Below are positions 1,578 to 25,970 of a stretch of DNA of 33,741 nt, in pieces. Origin of the DNA: Lentisphaeria bacterium (lineage in GTDB: Bacteria; Verrucomicrobiota; Lentisphaeria; JABSQK01; CAJWLW01). Made by a program: the position numbers and the translations under genes. The DNA lies in NCBI GenBank assembly GCA_030754995.1, contig JASLZG010000007.1:1-33741 (forward strand), given 5' to 3'. How positions within the stretch are numbered: the stretch's first letter is position 1; every line of letters starts with the position of its first letter. The notes beneath the pieces were generated by a model, which worked only from the letters and a program-made list of their open reading frames with translations, searched no databases and was not told the origin of the DNA.

Positions 1578-4558
1578 ATGCCAAGCCATATGACCCATAA
1601 AATTACGATCCGCTCGCTGATTGTAGGCACACTGTTTGCCGCGCTCTTCGCGTTGCTTTGCCCGTATTTTGAGAATCGGAAGACGGTCTACGTCACGGCA
1701 ACCCAAATCGCCGTGCTGCCGTTTGTCCTCCTGTTGCTCACTGTTTTGTTGATTAATCCGGTCTGCCGTTTCTTGCGGGTTGTGCGCCGATTCAGCACCG
1801 CGGAGATTCTGATCATTTTTATTATGGGCTCGGTGTCGTCCGGGATTTCGGCGTTTGGCCTGGCGGCGCAACTGGTGCCGGTGATCACCGGGCTTTACAA
1901 TCCGCACTGGAATAGTGATCAGAGCGAATGGAATCGTTACATCGAGCCGTTCGTGAACGAAAACTATTTCATGTCTCAACCGGGTATTCGTCAGGCCGCG
2001 GTCGCCTATCGAGAGGCACTGCTGAACCAGGAGGCGGCCGAGCACATCCATGGTTCGGCGCTCCGTTACCAACGCACCCGACGGTCGGTGGACGCCACGG
2101 ACAAGGAATTGCAGCGGCTCGAGGCGTCGTCCGCCAGCGCCGAAAGAGAAATCCAACTGAGTCCGGCCAAGAAGTTGCATCGTGCCGCGCTTCGAGCCAA
2201 CGCCGAAGCCGAGGACGCTTGGCGGGAAGCGGGCAAGAACTTGACGATGCCCCATGATGAGGTGCTCGCTGTTTTCCCCGACCGGGTACGCCGATTCCAG
2301 CAGGCCACCGTGACCCAAAAGACCGCCTTGCGAGAGTTGGAAGCGAAGGCGTTTGCCAAAGTTGAACGGTTTCGCCGCGGCCTGCCCAAGGGACTGCGTG
2401 CCTATCCCGGTTTCATTCCGCTGCCCGACGAGGATTTCGGTATATATATGGGGCGGGTCCGGCGCCTGCTTCATGGTGGTGCCGCTTTACGGAAACTACG
2501 GGAGGCCGAAAAGCTGCTGGCAGCCGCGGGTGGAACGGAAGGTCAACGTGCCGAGCTGCCCGAAGAGATTGGCGGCTTGATCGAAGCCGCGGTAGCCAAG
2601 CTGTCGTCGTTGAGCAACACGGACGAGCTCGATGAGCGCAAGAAAATGCTGCACGCGGAGTGGAACCATAAAAACGACGAACTGAAAAACGCCGTGGTGC
2701 CGGAACTCGAGCGACTTCGTGAACACCGCCGCGTCGCTGCCGCCGTTGATTTCTCCCGGCTCGACCGTGAAATCGGGCAGTTGACCAGCCGCGGCGAGGC
2801 GATCGCGGAAGAAAAAATCGGGTTCAAACAGTCGCTGGAACACCTTCAGGTGCAACTTGACGTGACGCAAAAGGTGGCAGCCGCGGCGAACGAGTTGCAA
2901 GCGCTGCGCCAAGAGCTTCAGCGCCCCGAGCCCATCGACGCGGGGCGCACCGCGGATGAACTGGCGGCGATCATGGTGACCTTCCGTACCTTCGACGCCA
3001 GCTATCAGCGGTTCCTTGTCGGTGACATCCCGTGGTCCCATTGGGTGAAACCATTGCTGCACTGGACACTCTTGGCCGCCCTTACCTACCTGATACTGAT
3101 GACCTTTAACCTGCTGATCTTCCGCCAGTGGGCGCATCATGAGCGGCTGGTTACCCCTTGGCGCAGTTACCGGAGATGCTGGCCGGCGATTCCAAAAATC
3201 CGGCTGGCACGTCGGTACCGGCGATCTATCGCAACGGTCTCTTCTGGCTCGGCGTCGCGATCTCCGGCGGGGTGCTCGGCTGGAATTTACTGGTGCTCTC
3301 CAACGTCATACCTGAGTTGCCGCAATTCCCGTTGGGAAAACACCCCTGGAGCGGTCTCAAGAACACGTCGCTGGAGGGCCTTACAGGGGGTCTCGCCCGG
3401 TCGGAAGTCTTTTTCACTGTGATCGGCCTGGCCTTTCTGATCCCGGCAAACATTTCGTTTTCGCTCTGGTTCTTTGCCGTTCTCTACATGGTGCAACTGT
3501 TGATTTTGGTATGGTCTGGCTACGGACAAACCGAACGTTCGTTCCCGATGGACCCCTGGTATACCTGGAACTTTCGCTACGCCGAAGGCTCCGGCGCGAT
3601 GATCGTTTTTGCCCTTGTGATTCTTTATAAATGCCGGCACTATCTCTTGTGCTTTTTCAAGCCCGCGACGGTCAGCGGACTTGAACTGGGCGAACAGAGG
3701 GAGCTGCGCGTCTCCTCCTGCCTGTTTGTGTTCGGTTCGCTGGCTCTCATTCTCTTGTTATGGTTGAGTATGGGCGCCAACCTCTATCACACCCTCTTCT
3801 GTTACTTCGCCATCATGGCCATGACTGTTGCCCTCGTCCGCGCCGTCACCGAAGGCGGCATCCTGGGGTTCCAGGCCTATGCCAGTCCGTTTCACTTCAT
3901 CCGGACATTTTTCGGGATGGACAAAGCCTGGACGGCCCCGGCGCTCTTCACCCCGTTGCTGGTGTACTACCTGGTTTTCTTTTTCGAGCTCAAGACCTTT
4001 ATCGCTCCGGCCATGGCCAACAGCATCAAAATCCGTGAGGACTTGAAGATGGAGCGGGGTCGTTTTCATCTGGCGATTTTCCTGGCGATCGCGATCGCCT
4101 CGGTAACCGTGATACTTATCCACGTGATGATGGGATACCACACCGGCGCCGACGCCATGAGCGGGTGGTTTTACATAAATTTTCCACAATCAATTTATAC
4201 CAAGATTGCCGCCATGAACAAGCTCGGGCCGGTGGACCAGACGGCCACTCATCTGTGGTTCGGGTTCGGCGCACTATTGATGTCGGCACTCTTGTGGTTG
4301 CGGCAGTTTTTCTTCTGGCTGCCCCATCCGATCGGCATGATCATGCTGGTCAACCCGCTCATGAGAATATACTGGTTTTCGATATTTCTCGGCTGGCTGG
4401 CCAAAACGCTGGTCACCAAGTACGGCCGGAAGGAGGCCTACGAGAAAGCACGGAATCTGTTTATCGGCCTGATCGCCGGTGAACTGGCCATCGTTGCCCT
4501 GGCGATGTTGGTGTCTTATCTAATGGAGACACAGATCAGGATTGACTTTAACCGTTAA
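1578..4558 (+). pseudogene. DUF6785-family membrane protein with long coiled-coil-like insert; split by an apparent 1-nt frameshift near 3154-3157
   Basis: ORF 1578..3422 encodes N-terminal TM helices, a charged Ala/Glu/Arg-rich segment and TM (LLIFRQWAHHERLVTP), then out-of-frame sequence; ORF 3158..4558 continues in frame as LAQLPEMLAGDSKNPAG...; one extra C in the CCCC run joins them as ...ERLVTPLAQLPEML. Confidence 0.75.
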
Positions 4559-14726: not shown

Positions 14727-17579
14727 ATGAACCCGGACAACGCCCGCGTTATCCCGACGCATATCGCGGCTTACCTGAAGCAGCCCGCGGCGGTCCCGAT
14801 CGAACCCGGCATCCAGAACTACGACTGGGGCGACCCGGAGTTCATTCCCGGGCACTTCGGCTACGACAACACCGCCCGCCGCCCGTATGCGGAACTGTGG
14901 ATGGGCGCCCATCCGGAACTGCCGGCACTGGCGCAACTCGACGAGCCAACCTCACTGCGGACGCTGATCGACGCCGCCGCCGAAACGTTGCTGGGCGCCG
15001 CCTGTGCCGAAAAATTCGGCGAACTGCCGTTTCTCTTCAAGGTCCTGAGCGCGGCGCAGCCGTTGTCCATCCAGGTACACCCGAACCGCATCCAGGCCGC
15101 CGCCGGATTCGCCAGGGAAAACGCCGCCGGGATCCCGATCGACGCCGCCCAGCGCAACTACAGGGACGGCAATCACAAGGTCGAAATGGCCGTCGCCATC
15201 ACCGGCATGTACGCCCTCGCCGGTTTGCGGCCGGCCAGCGAGATCGCCGCAAATCTGCAGCCGTTCGCCGACAGCGCCGAATATCCCGACGACCTGCCCG
15301 CGGCCGACAGCTCACCAGCCGCCGGGCGCCAATTGTTTACCGCGTTGATGTCGCTGCCGCAGCCTGTCGTCAACGACATTCTCAATCCCGTTGTCGCAAC
15401 GCTCGACAAAAAACGGGACTCCTTCAGCCGTGACGACTGGCAGTACTGGTTCCTGCGTGCCAACACCGTGTTCGCCGGCAATGGCGACCGCGACCGCGGG
15501 CTGTTGGCAATACCGTTCCTGCAACTTGTCCATCTGCAGCCGCTGCAGGCACTGTACCTGCCGCCGGGCATCGCGCACGCCTATCTCGAGGGTACGGTCG
15601 TCGAGATCATGGCAAACTCCAACAACGTCCTGCGCAGCGGGCTCACCCAGAAGCATATCGACACCGACGAGCTGGTCCGGGTCATCGACTTCGCTGCCGG
15701 CGCCCCGACGATTCTGGCTGCCGCCGCGGCCGGCGACTGGTCGGTGTACGAAACCCCGGCCGACGAGTTCCAACTGTCGCAGCGCCCGCTGACCGCCGGT
15801 GAAACCGTCTCGCACACCGCCGCCGCCAGCGCCGAGATCCTGCTGGTGCTGACCACCGACGCCGACACCGAAGTGACCGCCGATGGCGCCGGCCGCAACT
15901 TCTCGCGCCGTGGCAGCACCGCCGTGTTCCTGCCGGTCGATGCCGCCTGTGCAATCACCACGAGCGCTGATGCCCGGTTGTTTCGAGCCGCCGTTGGCGC
16001 GACCGGTCGTCCGGATTTTCGCACCCGGCAGCCGCCGACGCTGAGCTTCGGCACCAGCGGGCTGCGCGGCCTCGCCACCGACATCACCGACCTCGAAGCG
16101 TACATCAACTGTCGCGGCTTCCTGCGCTACCTCAAGGTTGTCGGCGACGCCGACGAAGGCACCACAGTGAGTACCGGCGGCGACATGCGCCCCAGCACCG
16201 GGCGCATCCTCGGCGCCGTCGCCGGGGCCATCGCCGACGAAGGCATGCAGGCGCACTACCTCGGCCGCGTGCCGACACCCGCACTCACCTATCACGGCAT
16301 TCAACACCGGCAGCCGAGCATCATGGTGACCGGCAGCCATATTCCATTCGATCGCAACGGCATCAAGTTCAACAAGAGCAACGGCGAGGTCCTCAAGGGC
16401 GACGAAGCCGGCATCCTCGCCGCTGTCGCTGCCATCCGCGACGAAACCTACGCCTGCCCGGCCGCGGCCTCGCAGTTCGACGACGACGGCATGTTCCGCG
16501 AGCCGGCCAAGGACCCGGTTGCCGATCCGGAAGGCATCGAACTGTATAGGCGGCGCTATGTCGATTTCATGCCGCCGGATTGCCTGCGCGGGATGCGGGT
16601 CGTCTTCTACCAGCACTCCGCCGTCGGCCGTGACCTGCTGGTCGATCTGCTGGACGCCCTCGGCGCCGACGTCATTCCGATGGGCCGCAGCGAATCCTTT
16701 GTCGCCGTCGACACCGAGGATATCACGGCCGAGCGGCTCCAGGTGCTGCAGGAACTGGCTGATACGGCCGCCGCCGGGCACGGCCCGGTCGACGCGGTGA
16801 TCTCGACCGACGGCGACAGCGACCGGCCGCTGCTGGCCGCTGTCGATGCGGCCGGCAAGGTGGTGTTTTACCCCGGCGATGTCCTCGGCGTAGTGGTCGC
16901 CGACTATCTGCAGGCCGATTCGATCTCGGTACCGATCAGCGCCAACGACCTGGTCGACCTGCATTTCCGGGCCCAGGACATCGAACCGCTGAAGACGAAA
17001 ATCGGCTCGCCCTTCGTCATCGCCGGCATGGACCGGGCAACGGGCACGGCGCGGGTGGGCTGGGAAGCCAACGGCGGTTTTCTCACCGGCTCGGTGATTG
17101 AACGGCACGGGCGCCTCCTCCCCGCCCTGCCGACGCGTGACGCCGGGCTGCCGCTCTTGGCAACACTGCATGCCGCCGCCGAGGCCAAGGTACCGGTGAC
17201 CGAGCTCTTCGCGCGGCTGCCGCACCGCTTCAGCAAAGCCGGGCTGCTCGACAACTTCGACCCCGCCGTCAGCCGGGCACTTCTCCAGCGCCTGTCGCCG
17301 CCGGCGACCGATGTGCCGGGAGCCCTGGCGCCGTTCTTCACGCCGGCGGATGGGTTCGGGGCAATCACCGAACTGAACTACATCGACGGTGTGCGCATCT
17401 TTTTCGACAACGGCGATATTGCCCACCTGCGCCCATCGGGCAACGCGCCGCAGCTGCGAATGTACGCCTGCGCCGACACCCGCGAGCGCGCCGATGAAAT
17501 CATCCGCCTCGCCGTCGCCGAACCCGACGGCATCCTGCGGCAATTGGAAACATGGATTCGGGACTCTCCGGATGACTGA
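14727..17579 (+). CDS. Fused mannose-6-phosphate isomerase (type I) - phosphomannomutase/phosphoglucomutase
   Basis: PMI part: IQNYDWG, QVHPNR, NHKVEMA, PPGIAHAYLEGTVVEIMANSNNVLRSGLT. PMM part: LSFGTSGLRG, VTGSHIPFDRNGIKF, DGDSDRP, WEANGGFLTG, RPSGNAPQLRMY. Confidence 0.93.
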   Translation: MNPDNARVIPTHIAAYLKQPAAVPIEPGIQNYDWGDPEFIPGHFGYDNTARRPYAELWMGAHPELPALAQLDEPTSLRTLIDAAAETLLGAACAEKFGELPFLFKVLSAAQPLSIQVHPNRIQAAAGFARENAAGIPIDAAQRNYRDGNHKVEMAVAITGMYALAGLRPASEIAANLQPFADSAEYPDDLPAADSSPAAGRQLFTALMSLPQPVVNDILNPVVATLDKKRDSFSRDDWQYWFLRANTVFAGNGDRDRGLLAIPFLQLVHLQPLQALYLPPGIAHAYLEGTVVEIMANSNNVLRSGLTQKHIDTDELVRVIDFAAGAPTILAAAAAGDWSVYETPADEFQLSQRPLTAGETVSHTAAASAEILLVLTTDADTEVTADGAGRNFSRRGSTAVFLPVDAACAITTSADARLFRAAVGATGRPDFRTRQPPTLSFGTSGLRGLATDITDLEAYINCRGFLRYLKVVGDADEGTTVSTGGDMRPSTGRILGAVAGAIADEGMQAHYLGRVPTPALTYHGIQHRQPSIMVTGSHIPFDRNGIKFNKSNGEVLKGDEAGILAAVAAIRDETYACPAAASQFDDDGMFREPAKDPVADPEGIELYRRRYVDFMPPDCLRGMRVVFYQHSAVGRDLLVDLLDALGADVIPMGRSESFVAVDTEDITAERLQVLQELADTAAAGHGPVDAVISTDGDSDRPLLAAVDAAGKVVFYPGDVLGVVVADYLQADSISVPISANDLVDLHFRAQDIEPLKTKIGSPFVIAGMDRATGTARVGWEANGGFLTGSVIERHGRLLPALPTRDAGLPLLATLHAAAEAKVPVTELFARLPHRFSKAGLLDNFDPAVSRALLQRLSPPATDVPGALAPFFTPADGFGAITELNYIDGVRIFFDNGDIAHLRPSGNAPQLRMYACADTRERADEIIRLAVAEPDGILRQLETWIRDSPDD

Positions 17580-21510: not shown

Positions 21511-22245
21511 ATGTTCCGGATAATCACCATTTGTCTGTTAGGTGTATTGGCGCTGTCGCTCCAGGCCCAGGATGAAGCCGCCGCGCCGGCAGAAGAAGAA
21601 CCGGAAGCCGCCGTCGACTGGCGTCTGAGCTATGCCGTAGGCATGGAAGCGGCCGAGTCGCTGAAGGCCCAGGAAACGCTGGATTCCCGGCTGTTCCAAC
21701 GCGGCTTTAAGGATTCTATAGACGGCGAAGAGCCGCTGCTCTCCCAGGAAGAGGCGCAGGAGATTCGCAAGGTCTATTACGCCGAGTTGGCGGCCGCTAA
21801 CAATCTCCAGCGGAGCCACGCCATCCTGGCGGAGAACGCCCAGGCCGAAGGCGTCACGACGACGGATAGCGGGCTGCAGTATGTCGTCCTCGAGCCGGGC
21901 GATGGAGAACGGCCCGCCGATTCCGACAGCGTGCAGATTCACTACAAGGTCTATAGCATCCGCGGCGTGCTGATTGAGGACTCCTATGGCAACGAACGCC
22001 CGGCGGCCAGCGAGGTCAGGGCCCTGATACCGGGCTGGCGCGAAGGACTGAAGCTCATGCAGGTCGGTGGCAAGTCCCGATTCTTCATCCCCCCCGAGCT
22101 GGCCTACGGCGCCGAGGGGCGGTTGCCGGCAATCGGCCCGAACATGGCGCTGATCGCCGACATTGAACTGCTGTCCAAATCCAGCATCGACAACGTCGAG
22201 CGGATATCCGAGGATACCAAGAAGAGCATCGAAGACCAGCTGTAA
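21511..22245 (+). CDS. FKBP-type peptidyl-prolyl isomerase with N-terminal FKBP_N-like region and signal peptide
   Basis: SD AGGAGG before ATG; signal-like MFRIITICLLGVLALSLQAQ; VQIHYKVY...LIPGWREGLKLMQVGGKSRFFIPPELAYG. Confidence 0.9.
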   Translation: MFRIITICLLGVLALSLQAQDEAAAPAEEEPEAAVDWRLSYAVGMEAAESLKAQETLDSRLFQRGFKDSIDGEEPLLSQEEAQEIRKVYYAELAAANNLQRSHAILAENAQAEGVTTTDSGLQYVVLEPGDGERPADSDSVQIHYKVYSIRGVLIEDSYGNERPAASEVRALIPGWREGLKLMQVGGKSRFFIPPELAYGAEGRLPAIGPNMALIADIELLSKSSIDNVERISEDTKKSIEDQL

Positions 22246-22261
22246 ACCGCTGTGCGTTCCG

Positions 22262-24001
22262 ATGGAGTCTTCACTCGGCAGAACCCCCGGCGGACGCCCG
22301 ACCGTATACGGGCGTAACGGCGTCGTCGCCTCCGGCCACTACCTGGCGTCGGAGATCGGCATTCACATCCTCCGACGCGGCGGCAACGCATTCGATGCCG
22401 CCGTTGCCGCCGTAATCGTCCTGCAGTTGACCAAGCCGCACCAGAACGGCTTCGCCGGCGAAAATCCAACCCTGCTTTATTGTGCACGCCGGAAGAAGGT
22501 CCATGCCTTGAGCGGCCATGGCCCGGCACCGGCAGCCGCGACGCTGGAGCGTGTGAGCAGCCTGTGCGACGGCCTGATCCCCCCCGATGGATTCCTGCCC
22601 GCAGTCGTGCCGTCGGCTTTCGGAACCTGCATGTATCTGCTCAAGACGTTCGGCACGCTGTCGGTCGAGACCGTGCTGACTCCGGCACTGGCGCTCGCCG
22701 TCGACGGCTTCGCCATGGCCGGCGACCTGTCGCGGACGATCGCCGCCGCGAGCCAGCGCTTCCGCACCCAGTGGCCGTCGAGCGCCGCCCTGTTCCTGCC
22801 CGGCGATGAGGTGCCGGCCGCCGGGGCATTGTTCTGCAACCCCGACTTCGGCCACACGCTGGAACGCCTGATCGAGGCGGCTGCCGGCAAAGACCGCGAA
22901 ACCGGCTGCACCGCCGCCGCCGACCGATTCTATCGCGGCGATATTGCCCGCGAGATTGTCGAATTCATCGGCGACGACCCGGCCGCCCTGCTGACTTTGG
23001 CTGACTTTGCCGCCTTCCACCCGGCGCTGGAAACGCCGGCATCGATTACCTGGCGCGGCATGGACGTCGTCAAATGCCCGACCTGGACGCAGGGGCCGGT
23101 ATTGCTGCAGTCACTGAATCTGCTGCAGTCATTCGACCTGGAGGCGATGGGCCACAACACCGGGGATTACATCCACACGGTGGTCGAGGCGATGAAGCTG
23201 GCCTACGCCGATCGCGAGTTTTACTATGGCGACCCCGACTTTTCCGAGATCCCCCTGGAACGATTGCTGGACCCCGCCCATGCCGCCGAACGCGCCGGAC
23301 TTATTGCGGACTCCGCAAGCTTGGAGCTGCGGCCGCACGGGTACGCGCCGCTGTCGGAGTTCGGCAGTGTGAACGACCTCGACGAGACGGTCGCTGCCGG
23401 TCCGCACCACGGGGACACGACCAAGCTGGACATCATCGACGGCGACGGCAATGCAATCAGCATCACGACCAGCGGCGGCTGGCTGCAATCGTCGCCGGTC
23501 ATCCCCGGATTGGGGTTCCCGCTCGGCACCCGTGGCCAGATGTTTTCGCTCCAGCCCGGGCACCCGAACTGCATCGCGCCGGGCAAACGGCCACGCACGA
23601 CGCTGACGCCGGGGCTGGCACTCAAAGAGGGCGAGCCATACCTGGCTTTTGGTTCGCCCGGGGGCGACGGCCAGGACCAGTGGGCCCTGCAGTTTCTGCT
23701 CAATACAGAACTCTTCGGCATGGACCTGCAGGAAGCGATCGAGGCGCCAACGTTCTGGTCGCAGCATTGGCCGGACAGTTTCTATCCGCGCAAATGCGAA
23801 CCCGGCAAATTGCTGCTGGAAAGCCGCATCGAGTCGACCGCCATCGAAGCAGTTGCAGCACGGGGGCATCATACAGTCCGGACCGGCGCGTATGCCGGCG
23901 GCAGCACCTGCGCCTGCCGCCGCCAGCAAACGCCCAGGGGCGTGTTGTTGTCGGCCGGCGCGTCGCCACGGCTCGAACCCGCCTATGCCCTGGCCTATTA
24001 G
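22262..24001 (+). CDS. Gamma-glutamyltransferase family protein
   Basis: VASGHYLASEIGIHILRRGGNAFDAAVAA; catalytic-Thr region GDTTKLDIIDGDGNAISITTS; PGKRPRTTLTPGLAL, GSPGGDGQ. Confidence 0.9.
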   Translation: MESSLGRTPGGRPTVYGRNGVVASGHYLASEIGIHILRRGGNAFDAAVAAVIVLQLTKPHQNGFAGENPTLLYCARRKKVHALSGHGPAPAAATLERVSSLCDGLIPPDGFLPAVVPSAFGTCMYLLKTFGTLSVETVLTPALALAVDGFAMAGDLSRTIAAASQRFRTQWPSSAALFLPGDEVPAAGALFCNPDFGHTLERLIEAAAGKDRETGCTAAADRFYRGDIAREIVEFIGDDPAALLTLADFAAFHPALETPASITWRGMDVVKCPTWTQGPVLLQSLNLLQSFDLEAMGHNTGDYIHTVVEAMKLAYADREFYYGDPDFSEIPLERLLDPAHAAERAGLIADSASLELRPHGYAPLSEFGSVNDLDETVAAGPHHGDTTKLDIIDGDGNAISITTSGGWLQSSPVIPGLGFPLGTRGQMFSLQPGHPNCIAPGKRPRTTLTPGLALKEGEPYLAFGSPGGDGQDQWALQFLLNTELFGMDLQEAIEAPTFWSQHWPDSFYPRKCEPGKLLLESRIESTAIEAVAARGHHTVRTGAYAGGSTCACRRQQTPRGVLLSAGASPRLEPAYALAY

Positions 24002-24037: not shown

Positions 24038-24610
24038 TCAATCGATTGACCCCTCGCCGAATTTTTCCAGGACCCCCTCCAACCAAAGACATTCGCCGAC
24101 AAACGCATCGTCGAAGTCGAGGAAACGCTGCAGGTTCGATGGCCCGGTACCGATGCAGGGCCATGGCGGTGGCGACTGGCGCCAGCCGCCGGCCGGCTTC
24201 ATGTGGCTGCGGTCGGACACCAGCCGGTCGCGAAAGTCGGCAGCTGGAACAACCCTGAAATACGGCCGCAAGTCGGACCGCCACCGGTCACATCCGGGGA
24301 AGGTCTCGTCCAGCCATATGTCAACTGCCGATGGAAAGGCCAGCCGCGTGTCGAAGTCGTAAACCTGCCACGCCTGTTCGGGCGCCGACCGCGCCGCCAG
24401 AACGACGTGATAGTCCCAGACAACCGGCTGCCCCACCGCCGCCGCGCGCTGCTGCCACAACATGCAGGTACGGGCCGGATTGGTGATGACCAGGACAACG
24501 CGCTCATCGCCGGCGAGAACTGGATTGCCGGCGAGCTGCCAGATGTTCTCTTCGCAGTAGAAGGCAGTGTAGGCGCACGCAGCCAGGGGCAGGTCGCGGC
24601 GCGGCGTCAC
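24038..24610 (-). CDS. NTAQ1-like protein N-terminal glutamine amidohydrolase (WDYHV family)
   Basis: CAYTAFYCEENIWQLA, PVVWDYHVVL, VYDFDTRLAFP, SDRSHMKPAGGWRQSPPPWPCI: the conserved Cys/His/Asp blocks of eukaryotic NTAQ1. GTG start overlaps the upstream stop (GTGA). Confidence 0.92.
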   Translation of the reverse strand: MTPRRDLPLAACAYTAFYCEENIWQLAGNPVLAGDERVVLVITNPARTCMLWQQRAAAVGQPVVWDYHVVLAARSAPEQAWQVYDFDTRLAFPSAVDIWLDETFPGCDRWRSDLRPYFRVVPAADFRDRLVSDRSHMKPAGGWRQSPPPWPCIGTGPSNLQRFLDFDDAFVGECLWLEGVLEKFGEGSID

Positions 24611-25221
24611 GCGTGCAAGCGTTCGCAGTGCTGCAGCAGCTGCGCCGCGAGGGCGTCGCTTGTCGGCAGTTCGATCAGGTCGATCTTCTGCTTGACATCA
24701 AGCGGCAGATGAAAGGCAAGCAGGTTGATGAAGGTCAGCAGTTCGATGGACTGCATGCGCTCCGCCAGGCCCGACGGTGCGTCGCCGATGACCTCGACCA
24801 GCGCCCGGGAGCCAAGCTCGCGCAGCCGCTCAACGGCGCCGTCCGCCGGCGATATTTCCGCCGGCATGTCATCGATGCGGGTCTCGACGCAGCGGAACGG
24901 TCTGTCGCAGGACACCTCCGCCATCTGCACCCGCGACACTCCCTCCACCAGGATATTGTAGCGACCATCAGGATGCCGCTCGTAATCGATGACGCTGCAG
25001 ACGCAGCCGGTGGGGTGAAAGTCCGGGTTGCCGTCGTACTTCTGCGCCCAGTTGCCAACCAGCGTGCCCATGCAAAATCTGCCATTGCCGTCGAGGACTT
25101 CCGCCATCATCTCACGGTACCGAGACTCAAAAATATGCAGCGGCACGTGGACGCGCGGGAACAGGACAAAATCGGGCAATGGAAAAAGCGGCAGGACTTC
25201 ATAAGCACTCACTTTCACCAT
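24607..25221 (-). CDS. LON substrate-binding (LON N-terminal, PUA-like) domain protein
   Basis: EVLPLFPLPDFVLFPRVHVPLHIFESRYREMMAEVL...CVCSVIDYERHPDGRYNILVEGVSRV; no AAA+ or protease domain. GGAGGG upstream of ATG at 25221 (alternative ATG 25242). Confidence 0.9.
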   Translation of the reverse strand: MVKVSAYEVLPLFPLPDFVLFPRVHVPLHIFESRYREMMAEVLDGNGRFCMGTLVGNWAQKYDGNPDFHPTGCVCSVIDYERHPDGRYNILVEGVSRVQMAEVSCDRPFRCVETRIDDMPAEISPADGAVERLRELGSRALVEVIGDAPSGLAERMQSIELLTFINLLAFHLPLDVKQKIDLIELPTSDALAAQLLQHCERLHA

Positions 25222-25386
25222 CCTTTCCTTCCCTCCTGACATGGACCGGCCATGACTGATTCAGGCGTTCTGGCGGCGGTTGCAGCCCACACCCTCCGCG
25301 CTACCTGCCAAATTACACCCGAATGGACTGGTTGTACAAGAAACTATTGAATGAAATTGCGCGGTGCCGGCTGCCGGCCGGGGCAA

Positions 25387-25415
25387 TTGTCATCGCTGCC
25401 GACAGGGAGTATACT
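25387..25415 (+). promoter_or_regulatory. Sigma70-like promoter TTGTCA-N17-TATACT
   Basis: Near-consensus hexamers with 17-bp spacing upstream of the ATG at 25452. Confidence 0.6.
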
Positions 25416-25451
25416 CTTGGTCATTGTGATAACCTGCAACCGGTTGCCGCC

Positions 25452-25970
25452 ATGCATCTCTGGCTTGTCTACGCACTGTTGACGGTCCTGTTCTGGGGCT
25501 TGTACGGCGTCTTTCTGCACACCGGCCAGGTCGCCATGGCCGATCCGGTTAACGGCCGTTACAAGGCATTCCTGCTTGTCGGTATCGCCTATTTCCTGAC
25601 CGCCGTTCTGGCGCCGCTGGCCATTCTCATTTTCAAGGGCTCGGATTGGTCGATGCCCGGCAAAGGCGTGACCTTCTCGCTGGTTGCCGGCCTGGTTGGG
25701 GCAGCCGGTGCTTTCTGCGTGCTGCTGGCATTCGGCGCCAAGGGAACGCCGCCGGTCGTGATGTCGATCATTTTTGCCGGGGCCCCGATCATCAATGCGG
25801 GTGTGGCGATTGCACTGCATCCGCCGGCCGGCGGCTGGCGCTCGGTCGGCCTGCCGTTTTATCTCGGCATTGTACTGGCCGCCGTCGGCGGTTGCCTGGT
25901 GTCGTTGTACAAGCCGGCGCCAGGCAAGCCACCACCCAAACCGGACGTCGTTCAAACCGACGTGCAGTGA
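25452..25970 (+). CDS. EamA/DMT-like small membrane protein
   Basis: 172 aa, about 5 hydrophobic helices, MHLWLVYALLTVLFWGLYGVFLHTGQ...VVMSIIFAGAPIINAGVAI. Confidence 0.7.
   Translation: MHLWLVYALLTVLFWGLYGVFLHTGQVAMADPVNGRYKAFLLVGIAYFLTAVLAPLAILIFKGSDWSMPGKGVTFSLVAGLVGAAGAFCVLLAFGAKGTPPVVMSIIFAGAPIINAGVAIALHPPAGGWRSVGLPFYLGIVLAAVGGCLVSLYKPAPGKPPPKPDVVQTDVQ

Follow-up and report, generated by a model that had tools for sequence, protein, structure and literature searches.

The window analysed here, a stretch of 33,741 nucleotides from a Lentisphaeria bacterium, encodes on its minus strand a true, full-length member of the NTAQ1 family (24038..24610, 190 aa, GTG start), which is likely to be an active N-terminal Gln amidohydrolase. 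The same genome encodes a set of bacterial N-degron components, and we consider it an even call that the enzyme feeds Bpt and ClpS/ClpAP in this organism. From the family, the fold, the triad and the companion genes observed in the same genome, we infer the following activity, substrate, order of steps and turnover function. A papain-like Cys19-His68-Asp85 triad would strip the side-chain ammonia from the N-terminal Gln of a protein to leave an N-terminal Glu, the Bpt transferase of this genome would add Leu to the new Glu terminus, and ClpS would recognise the Leu terminus and pass the protein to ClpAP. Gln would then rank as a tertiary destabilising residue, the status it holds in eukaryotes, with the difference that the steps after it would be those of the bacterial leucine branch.

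Family, catalytic triad and predicted fold of the NTAQ1-like protein

We searched the NTAQ1-like protein with the PF09764 profile, which matched well above its cut-off (E 1.6e-44, 152.2 bits, cut-off 27) and aligned protein residues 14-169 on profile positions 1-166 of 184. Human NTAQ1 aligned with residues 8-169 at 40% identity (E 2.8e-33). The Cys, His and Asp motifs pointed out from the sequence alone (YCEEN, WDYHV and YDFDT) were found in the translation, together with the SDRSHMK...PPPWPCI block. The triad of human NTAQ1 is Cys28/His81/Asp97 (PMC4214742), corresponding here to Cys19, the predicted nucleophile (codon at 24554..24556, minus strand), His68 (24407..24409, minus strand) and Asp85 (24356..24358, minus strand). 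Using an alignment that combined human NTAQ1 with some 83 relatives from bacteria, with invariance counted over the rows that have a letter at the position, we found Cys19 invariant in 83 aligned sequences and His68 and Asp85 each in 84. Across the bacterial sequences (roughly 83, representing six or more phyla), the triad and the CEEN.W, W.YH, D and S/T-DR.HM blocks were invariant or nearly so; the relatives having been gathered by peptide patterns that covered the Cys and His blocks, only the Asp, SDR.HM and PP.P blocks serve as independent checks.

The AlphaFold model of the protein had a pLDDT of 94.8, and Foldseek matched it to structures of human NTAQ1 at E about 1e-17 and TM about 0.85. 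All matches below E 0.001 were human NTAQ1, mostly N-terminal Gln variants, and no non-NTAQ1 fold was retrieved below that threshold. The NTAQ1-family identity is thus upheld by profile, triad and fold, and the assignment of the protein as an N-terminal Gln amidohydrolase is highly probable on sequence and modelled structure. We consider activity likely because the triad, the family blocks and the predicted fold all match those of human NTAQ1.

The likeness to eukaryotic NTAQ1 (Nt_Gln_amidase, PF09764; human C8orf32) comprises homology over the whole domain at the identity given above, the Cys-His-Asp triad and the fold, and the SDRSHM and PPP[WY]PCI blocks are common to both. Downstream of the eukaryotic enzyme come arginylation by ATE1 and then UBR ubiquitin ligases, a type of enzyme that one would not expect in bacteria, whereas the bacterial gene here adjoins a LON gene and only the bacterial Bpt/ClpS route is available downstream.

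Organisation of the gene pair

The NTAQ1-like gene follows, on the minus strand, a gene for a standalone LON substrate-binding-domain protein, first listed at 24607..25242 (211 aa). Both reading frames are present as the sequence-only reading had described them, and so is the GTGA overlap (24607..24610, minus strand, read directly), in which the LON stop codon TGA occupies 24609-24607 and the NTAQ1 start codon GTG 24610-24608. Together with the motifs and the profile matches of both proteins, these features are well outside the reach of chance. The LON gene probably starts at the ATG at 25221 (24607..25221, minus strand, 204 aa; the domain itself matches PF02190) and not at 25242, because between its two ATGs there is a strong Shine-Dalgarno-like stretch (AGGAGGGAAGG) and the N termini of its relatives correspond to Met8 of the 211-aa version; the AGGAGGG before the start at 25221 is read directly at 25231..25237 (minus strand). 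On inspection of the sequence upstream of the NTAQ1 GTG we found no Shine-Dalgarno-like stretch. Translational coupling of NTAQ1 to LON by re-initiation is plausible, because the GTG has no such stretch and is the sole in-frame ATG/GTG/TTG ahead of the conserved block.

The two genes form an isolated unit flanked by opposite-strand genes on both sides, and the LON gene is probably co-transcribed with NTAQ1 in this genome. Downstream, and outside the pair, the unit is bounded by a convergent gamma-glutamyltranspeptidase gene (22163..24001, plus strand; PF01019, E 1e-116), the end of which lies 36 bases from the NTAQ1 stop; upstream, also outside the pair, it is bounded by a divergent ORF without Pfam match (25323..25970, plus strand).

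Elsewhere in the window, two overlapping plus-strand frames (1578-4558) each hold part of a DUF6785/DUF6784 (OPT transporter-like) protein, divided by a frameshift either of the gene or of the assembly, and in a 949-aa ORF (14730-17576) a type I phosphomannose isomerase domain is fused to a complete phosphomannomutase/phosphoglucomutase.

N-degron genes in the same genome

The sequence-only reading had proposed Bpt leucylation and ClpS/ClpAP as the steps after deamidation, and a search of the same genome for bpt, aat, clpS and clpA returned all four, with a divergent Aat. Bpt (G000:C489) matched the NCBIfam model NF002346 at 212 bits (cut-off 170); NCBI names this model arginyltransferase, and sequence does not tell whether Bpt transfers Leu or Arg. 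The clpS gene is directly followed by clpA (G000:C65), ClpA being read up to the edge of the stretch examined, and ClpS contains NDDYTPMEF and MLSVH, which we take to be the pocket blocks of E. coli ClpS. Aat passed TIGR00667 narrowly (145.9 against a cut-off of 143.6); in the Aat tree this protein (L105:5889-6512) forms the longest branch, and several conserved residues are missing from it, such as the Lys of the ASK block.

It is established for Vibrio vulnificus that Bpt transfers Leu to N-terminal Asp and Glu, and that proteins with a Leu terminus are passed by ClpS to ClpAP (PMC3692480). The present genome resembles this bacterial Leu/N-degron pathway in having the genes for Aat, Bpt, ClpS and ClpA. 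The pathway as described there has primary destabilising residues and, beyond them, secondary ones only (Arg and Lys, plus Asp and Glu with Bpt), whereas a Gln amidase would add a tertiary residue.

Distribution of bacterial NTAQ1

By peptide-pattern search of 84,980 species genomes we retrieved NTAQ1 relatives on at least 196 stretches, a lower bound; by these strict patterns NTAQ1 occurs in less than 0.3% of all species. The relatives belong to Bacteroidota (one clade), Myxococcota, Pseudomonadota, Acidobacteriota, Planctomycetota and Melainabacteria. By profile search, 5 of the 198 genomes of the window's class encode NTAQ1, as do 51 of the 379 Myxococcota (13% of those sampled), and the 14 model genomes yielded no match; a search of phages, plasmids and viral contigs found none. 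One genome of the class (G008) has an apparently decayed NTAQ1 with a stop codon (L007:1501-1692), the copy in its sister G007 being intact. Among the open-licence papers searched, we found neither a description of a bacterial NTAQ1, which is not proof of absence, nor one of Gln acting in bacteria as a tertiary destabilising residue.

Co-occurrence of NTAQ1 with Bpt, Aat and ClpS

Within the window's class, 16 of 198 genomes encode Bpt, namely 5/5 of those with NTAQ1 versus 11/193 of the others, at a nominal p of 2e-6 that is confounded by kinship, most of these genomes being close neighbours when listed by kinship. Independent origins of NTAQ1 in the class would have made this co-occurrence strong evidence. 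We considered such independent acquisitions and set them aside: the tree scattered the sequences, but a single clade was not rejected (p-AU 0.38 for four, 0.87 for three). The p-value for the class thus overstates the case, because the genomes are kin and a single NTAQ1 origin is not rejected (p-AU 0.38).

Among the 379 Myxococcota, we found no association between NTAQ1 and Bpt, which is present in 23/51 genomes with NTAQ1 versus 124/328 others (p 0.36). In 54 NTAQ1-encoding genomes chosen for diversity, ClpS was detected in 51, Aat in 47 and Bpt in 35, leaving 19 without Bpt. All six Cyclobacteriaceae-type genomes sampled with NTAQ1 (L015, L016, L021, L029, L045, L081) are devoid of both Bpt and Aat, and their ClpS is short and divergent. 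Bpt is not an obligate partner of NTAQ1, because the Myxococcota show no association and these six genomes have neither transferase; therefore, in the Bpt-less lineages, either NTAQ1 must have a Bpt-independent use or an unrecognised transferase must substitute. The Cyclobacteriaceae-type protein presents itself as a Gln amidase without a known downstream transferase.

No bpt, clpS or clpA was found near NTAQ1 in the loci surveyed (80, and 38 further that partly overlap with them). The sole N-degron gene near any NTAQ1 is an Aat gene (L062:1282-1896) about 3 kb away in the same orientation, separated from it by antiparallel genes.

Among the Aat proteins, a supported clade (FPWTG[EI]HPIPW, DCQQxT; L150, L152, L153, L156, L144, L157, L160) occurs, within the set of NTAQ1-encoding genomes, only in those without Bpt (7/19 versus 0/35 with Bpt, p 3e-4). 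Several of these genomes also carry an ordinary Aat, and the clade may have another substrate specificity. In the 379 Myxococcota the motif of this second clade was found in 6 genomes, 4 of them with NTAQ1. The replacement of Bpt by a second Aat type is reduced to a lead by this low count and by the motif having been defined on NTAQ1-encoding genomes.

The LON-domain protein

PF02190 is the sole domain of the LON protein (E 7e-30, 105 bits, cut-off 28.7; residues 16-194 of 211), which at 204-211 aa has no AAA+ or protease domain; its predicted structure had a pLDDT of 35. In being a LON domain alone of about 200 aa it resembles standalone proteins such as Bordetella BPP1347 (PF02190; PDB 1zbo), and it differs from them in the overlap of its gene with NTAQ1. 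In Cereblon and the LONRF proteins, too, a LON domain serves protein quality control (PMC4287342, PMC10226518), but these proteins act in ubiquitin ligases and have CULT or RING domains, of which the present protein has neither, so that the comparison is one of analogy only.

We inspected the flanks of 80 NTAQ1 loci from other species (median flank about 5 kb) and found a LON gene in none, nor was there one in the 38 further, partly overlapping loci; the window's genome is the only one in which LON and NTAQ1 were adjacent. Within the class, just four genomes have a clear standalone LON orthologue, and all four encode NTAQ1 (4/5 with NTAQ1 versus 0/193 others; nominal p 8e-8, again among related genomes). 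In the three others (G001, G007, G008) the orthologue lies on a contig other than that of NTAQ1, beside genes that on inspection resemble those for a MiaB-type methylthiotransferase, a shikimate kinase and an esterase. The neighbourhood that had been proposed from this DNA is therefore not conserved, neither in the 0/80 and 0/38 loci nor in the relatives of the class, and LON as a conserved partner of NTAQ1 is rejected on these grounds. The coupling is probably a local gene arrangement, LON being neither conserved nor required as a partner.

Other recurrent neighbours of NTAQ1 were also rejected: the gene clusters obtained reflected synteny within a genus, apart from a weak arrangement in Myxococcota. 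There (L022, L031, L033), an alpha/beta-hydrolase gene directly precedes NTAQ1 and is itself preceded by a gene of the recurrent cluster c2, a small arrangement at the level of the lineage.

Alternative explanations

The amidase could deamidate N-terminal Gln for a purpose other than Bpt, with Bpt co-occurring only by lineage; we regard this as a tentative but real possibility. The Glu formed could alter or protect the N terminus (forestalling cyclisation to pyroglutamate, for instance), serve in peptide recycling or be read by another recognition factor, uses to which we give the same tentative standing. Such a role would fit the 28/51 NTAQ1-encoding Myxococcota that have no Bpt and show no enrichment, the six Cyclobacteriaceae-type genomes with their short, divergent ClpS and neither transferase, and the lack of a shared NTAQ1 neighbourhood across loci. 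Every NTAQ1-encoding genome of the window's class, however, has Bpt and, where tested, ClpS, and the analysis turned up no other factor that would read N-terminal Glu. A drift of the protein to another target of deamidation or transglutamination (internal Gln, free amides or a special peptide) is improbable: protein-glutaminases and effectors acting on other targets are indeed known among papain-like folds (PMC4214742), and some sequences of the bacterial set resemble human NTAQ1 only distantly, but the protein studied here has 40% identity to human NTAQ1 with every family block retained, and NTAQ1 alone was matched by Foldseek below E 0.001.

That LON and NTAQ1 form a working module, in which LON binds substrates or docks the amidase to a protease, is unlikely. 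The isolated two-gene unit with its GTGA overlap, the confinement of LON orthologues in the class to NTAQ1-encoding genomes (4/5 versus 0/193) and the occurrence of LON domains in quality-control ligases such as LONRF2 (PMC10226518) are consistent with it, but the adjacency is limited to one genome (0/80 and 0/38 loci elsewhere), the orthologues of G001, G007 and G008 are on other contigs beside unrelated genes, and the co-occurrence lies among relatives. We found nothing beyond this single adjacency for the suggestion that the LON domain acts as substrate receptor or adaptor. We hold it to be very doubtful that some bacteria run a three-tier pathway from NTAQ1 through Bpt or, where Bpt is missing, the distinct Aat clade to ClpS/ClpAP, with LON co-expressed as a substrate receptor in the window's lineage. 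Of the tertiary-destabilising module advanced by the sequence-only reading, the NTAQ1 family, the presence of Bpt, ClpS, ClpA and Aat in the genome and the 5/5 occurrence of Bpt in the class stood, while the LON pairing and a general dependence on Bpt did not.

Significance

The spread of NTAQ1 among bacteria, often without Bpt, raises the question of the role of the enzyme where no Glu transferase is found. If N-terminal Gln deamidation does feed Bpt and ClpS/ClpAP in the genome studied here, the combination of NTAQ1, Bpt and ClpS would add a tertiary tier of the eukaryotic type to the bacterial N-degron pathway, Gln termini would be degrons in some bacteria, and the finding would bear on the origin of the eukaryotic deamidation step.
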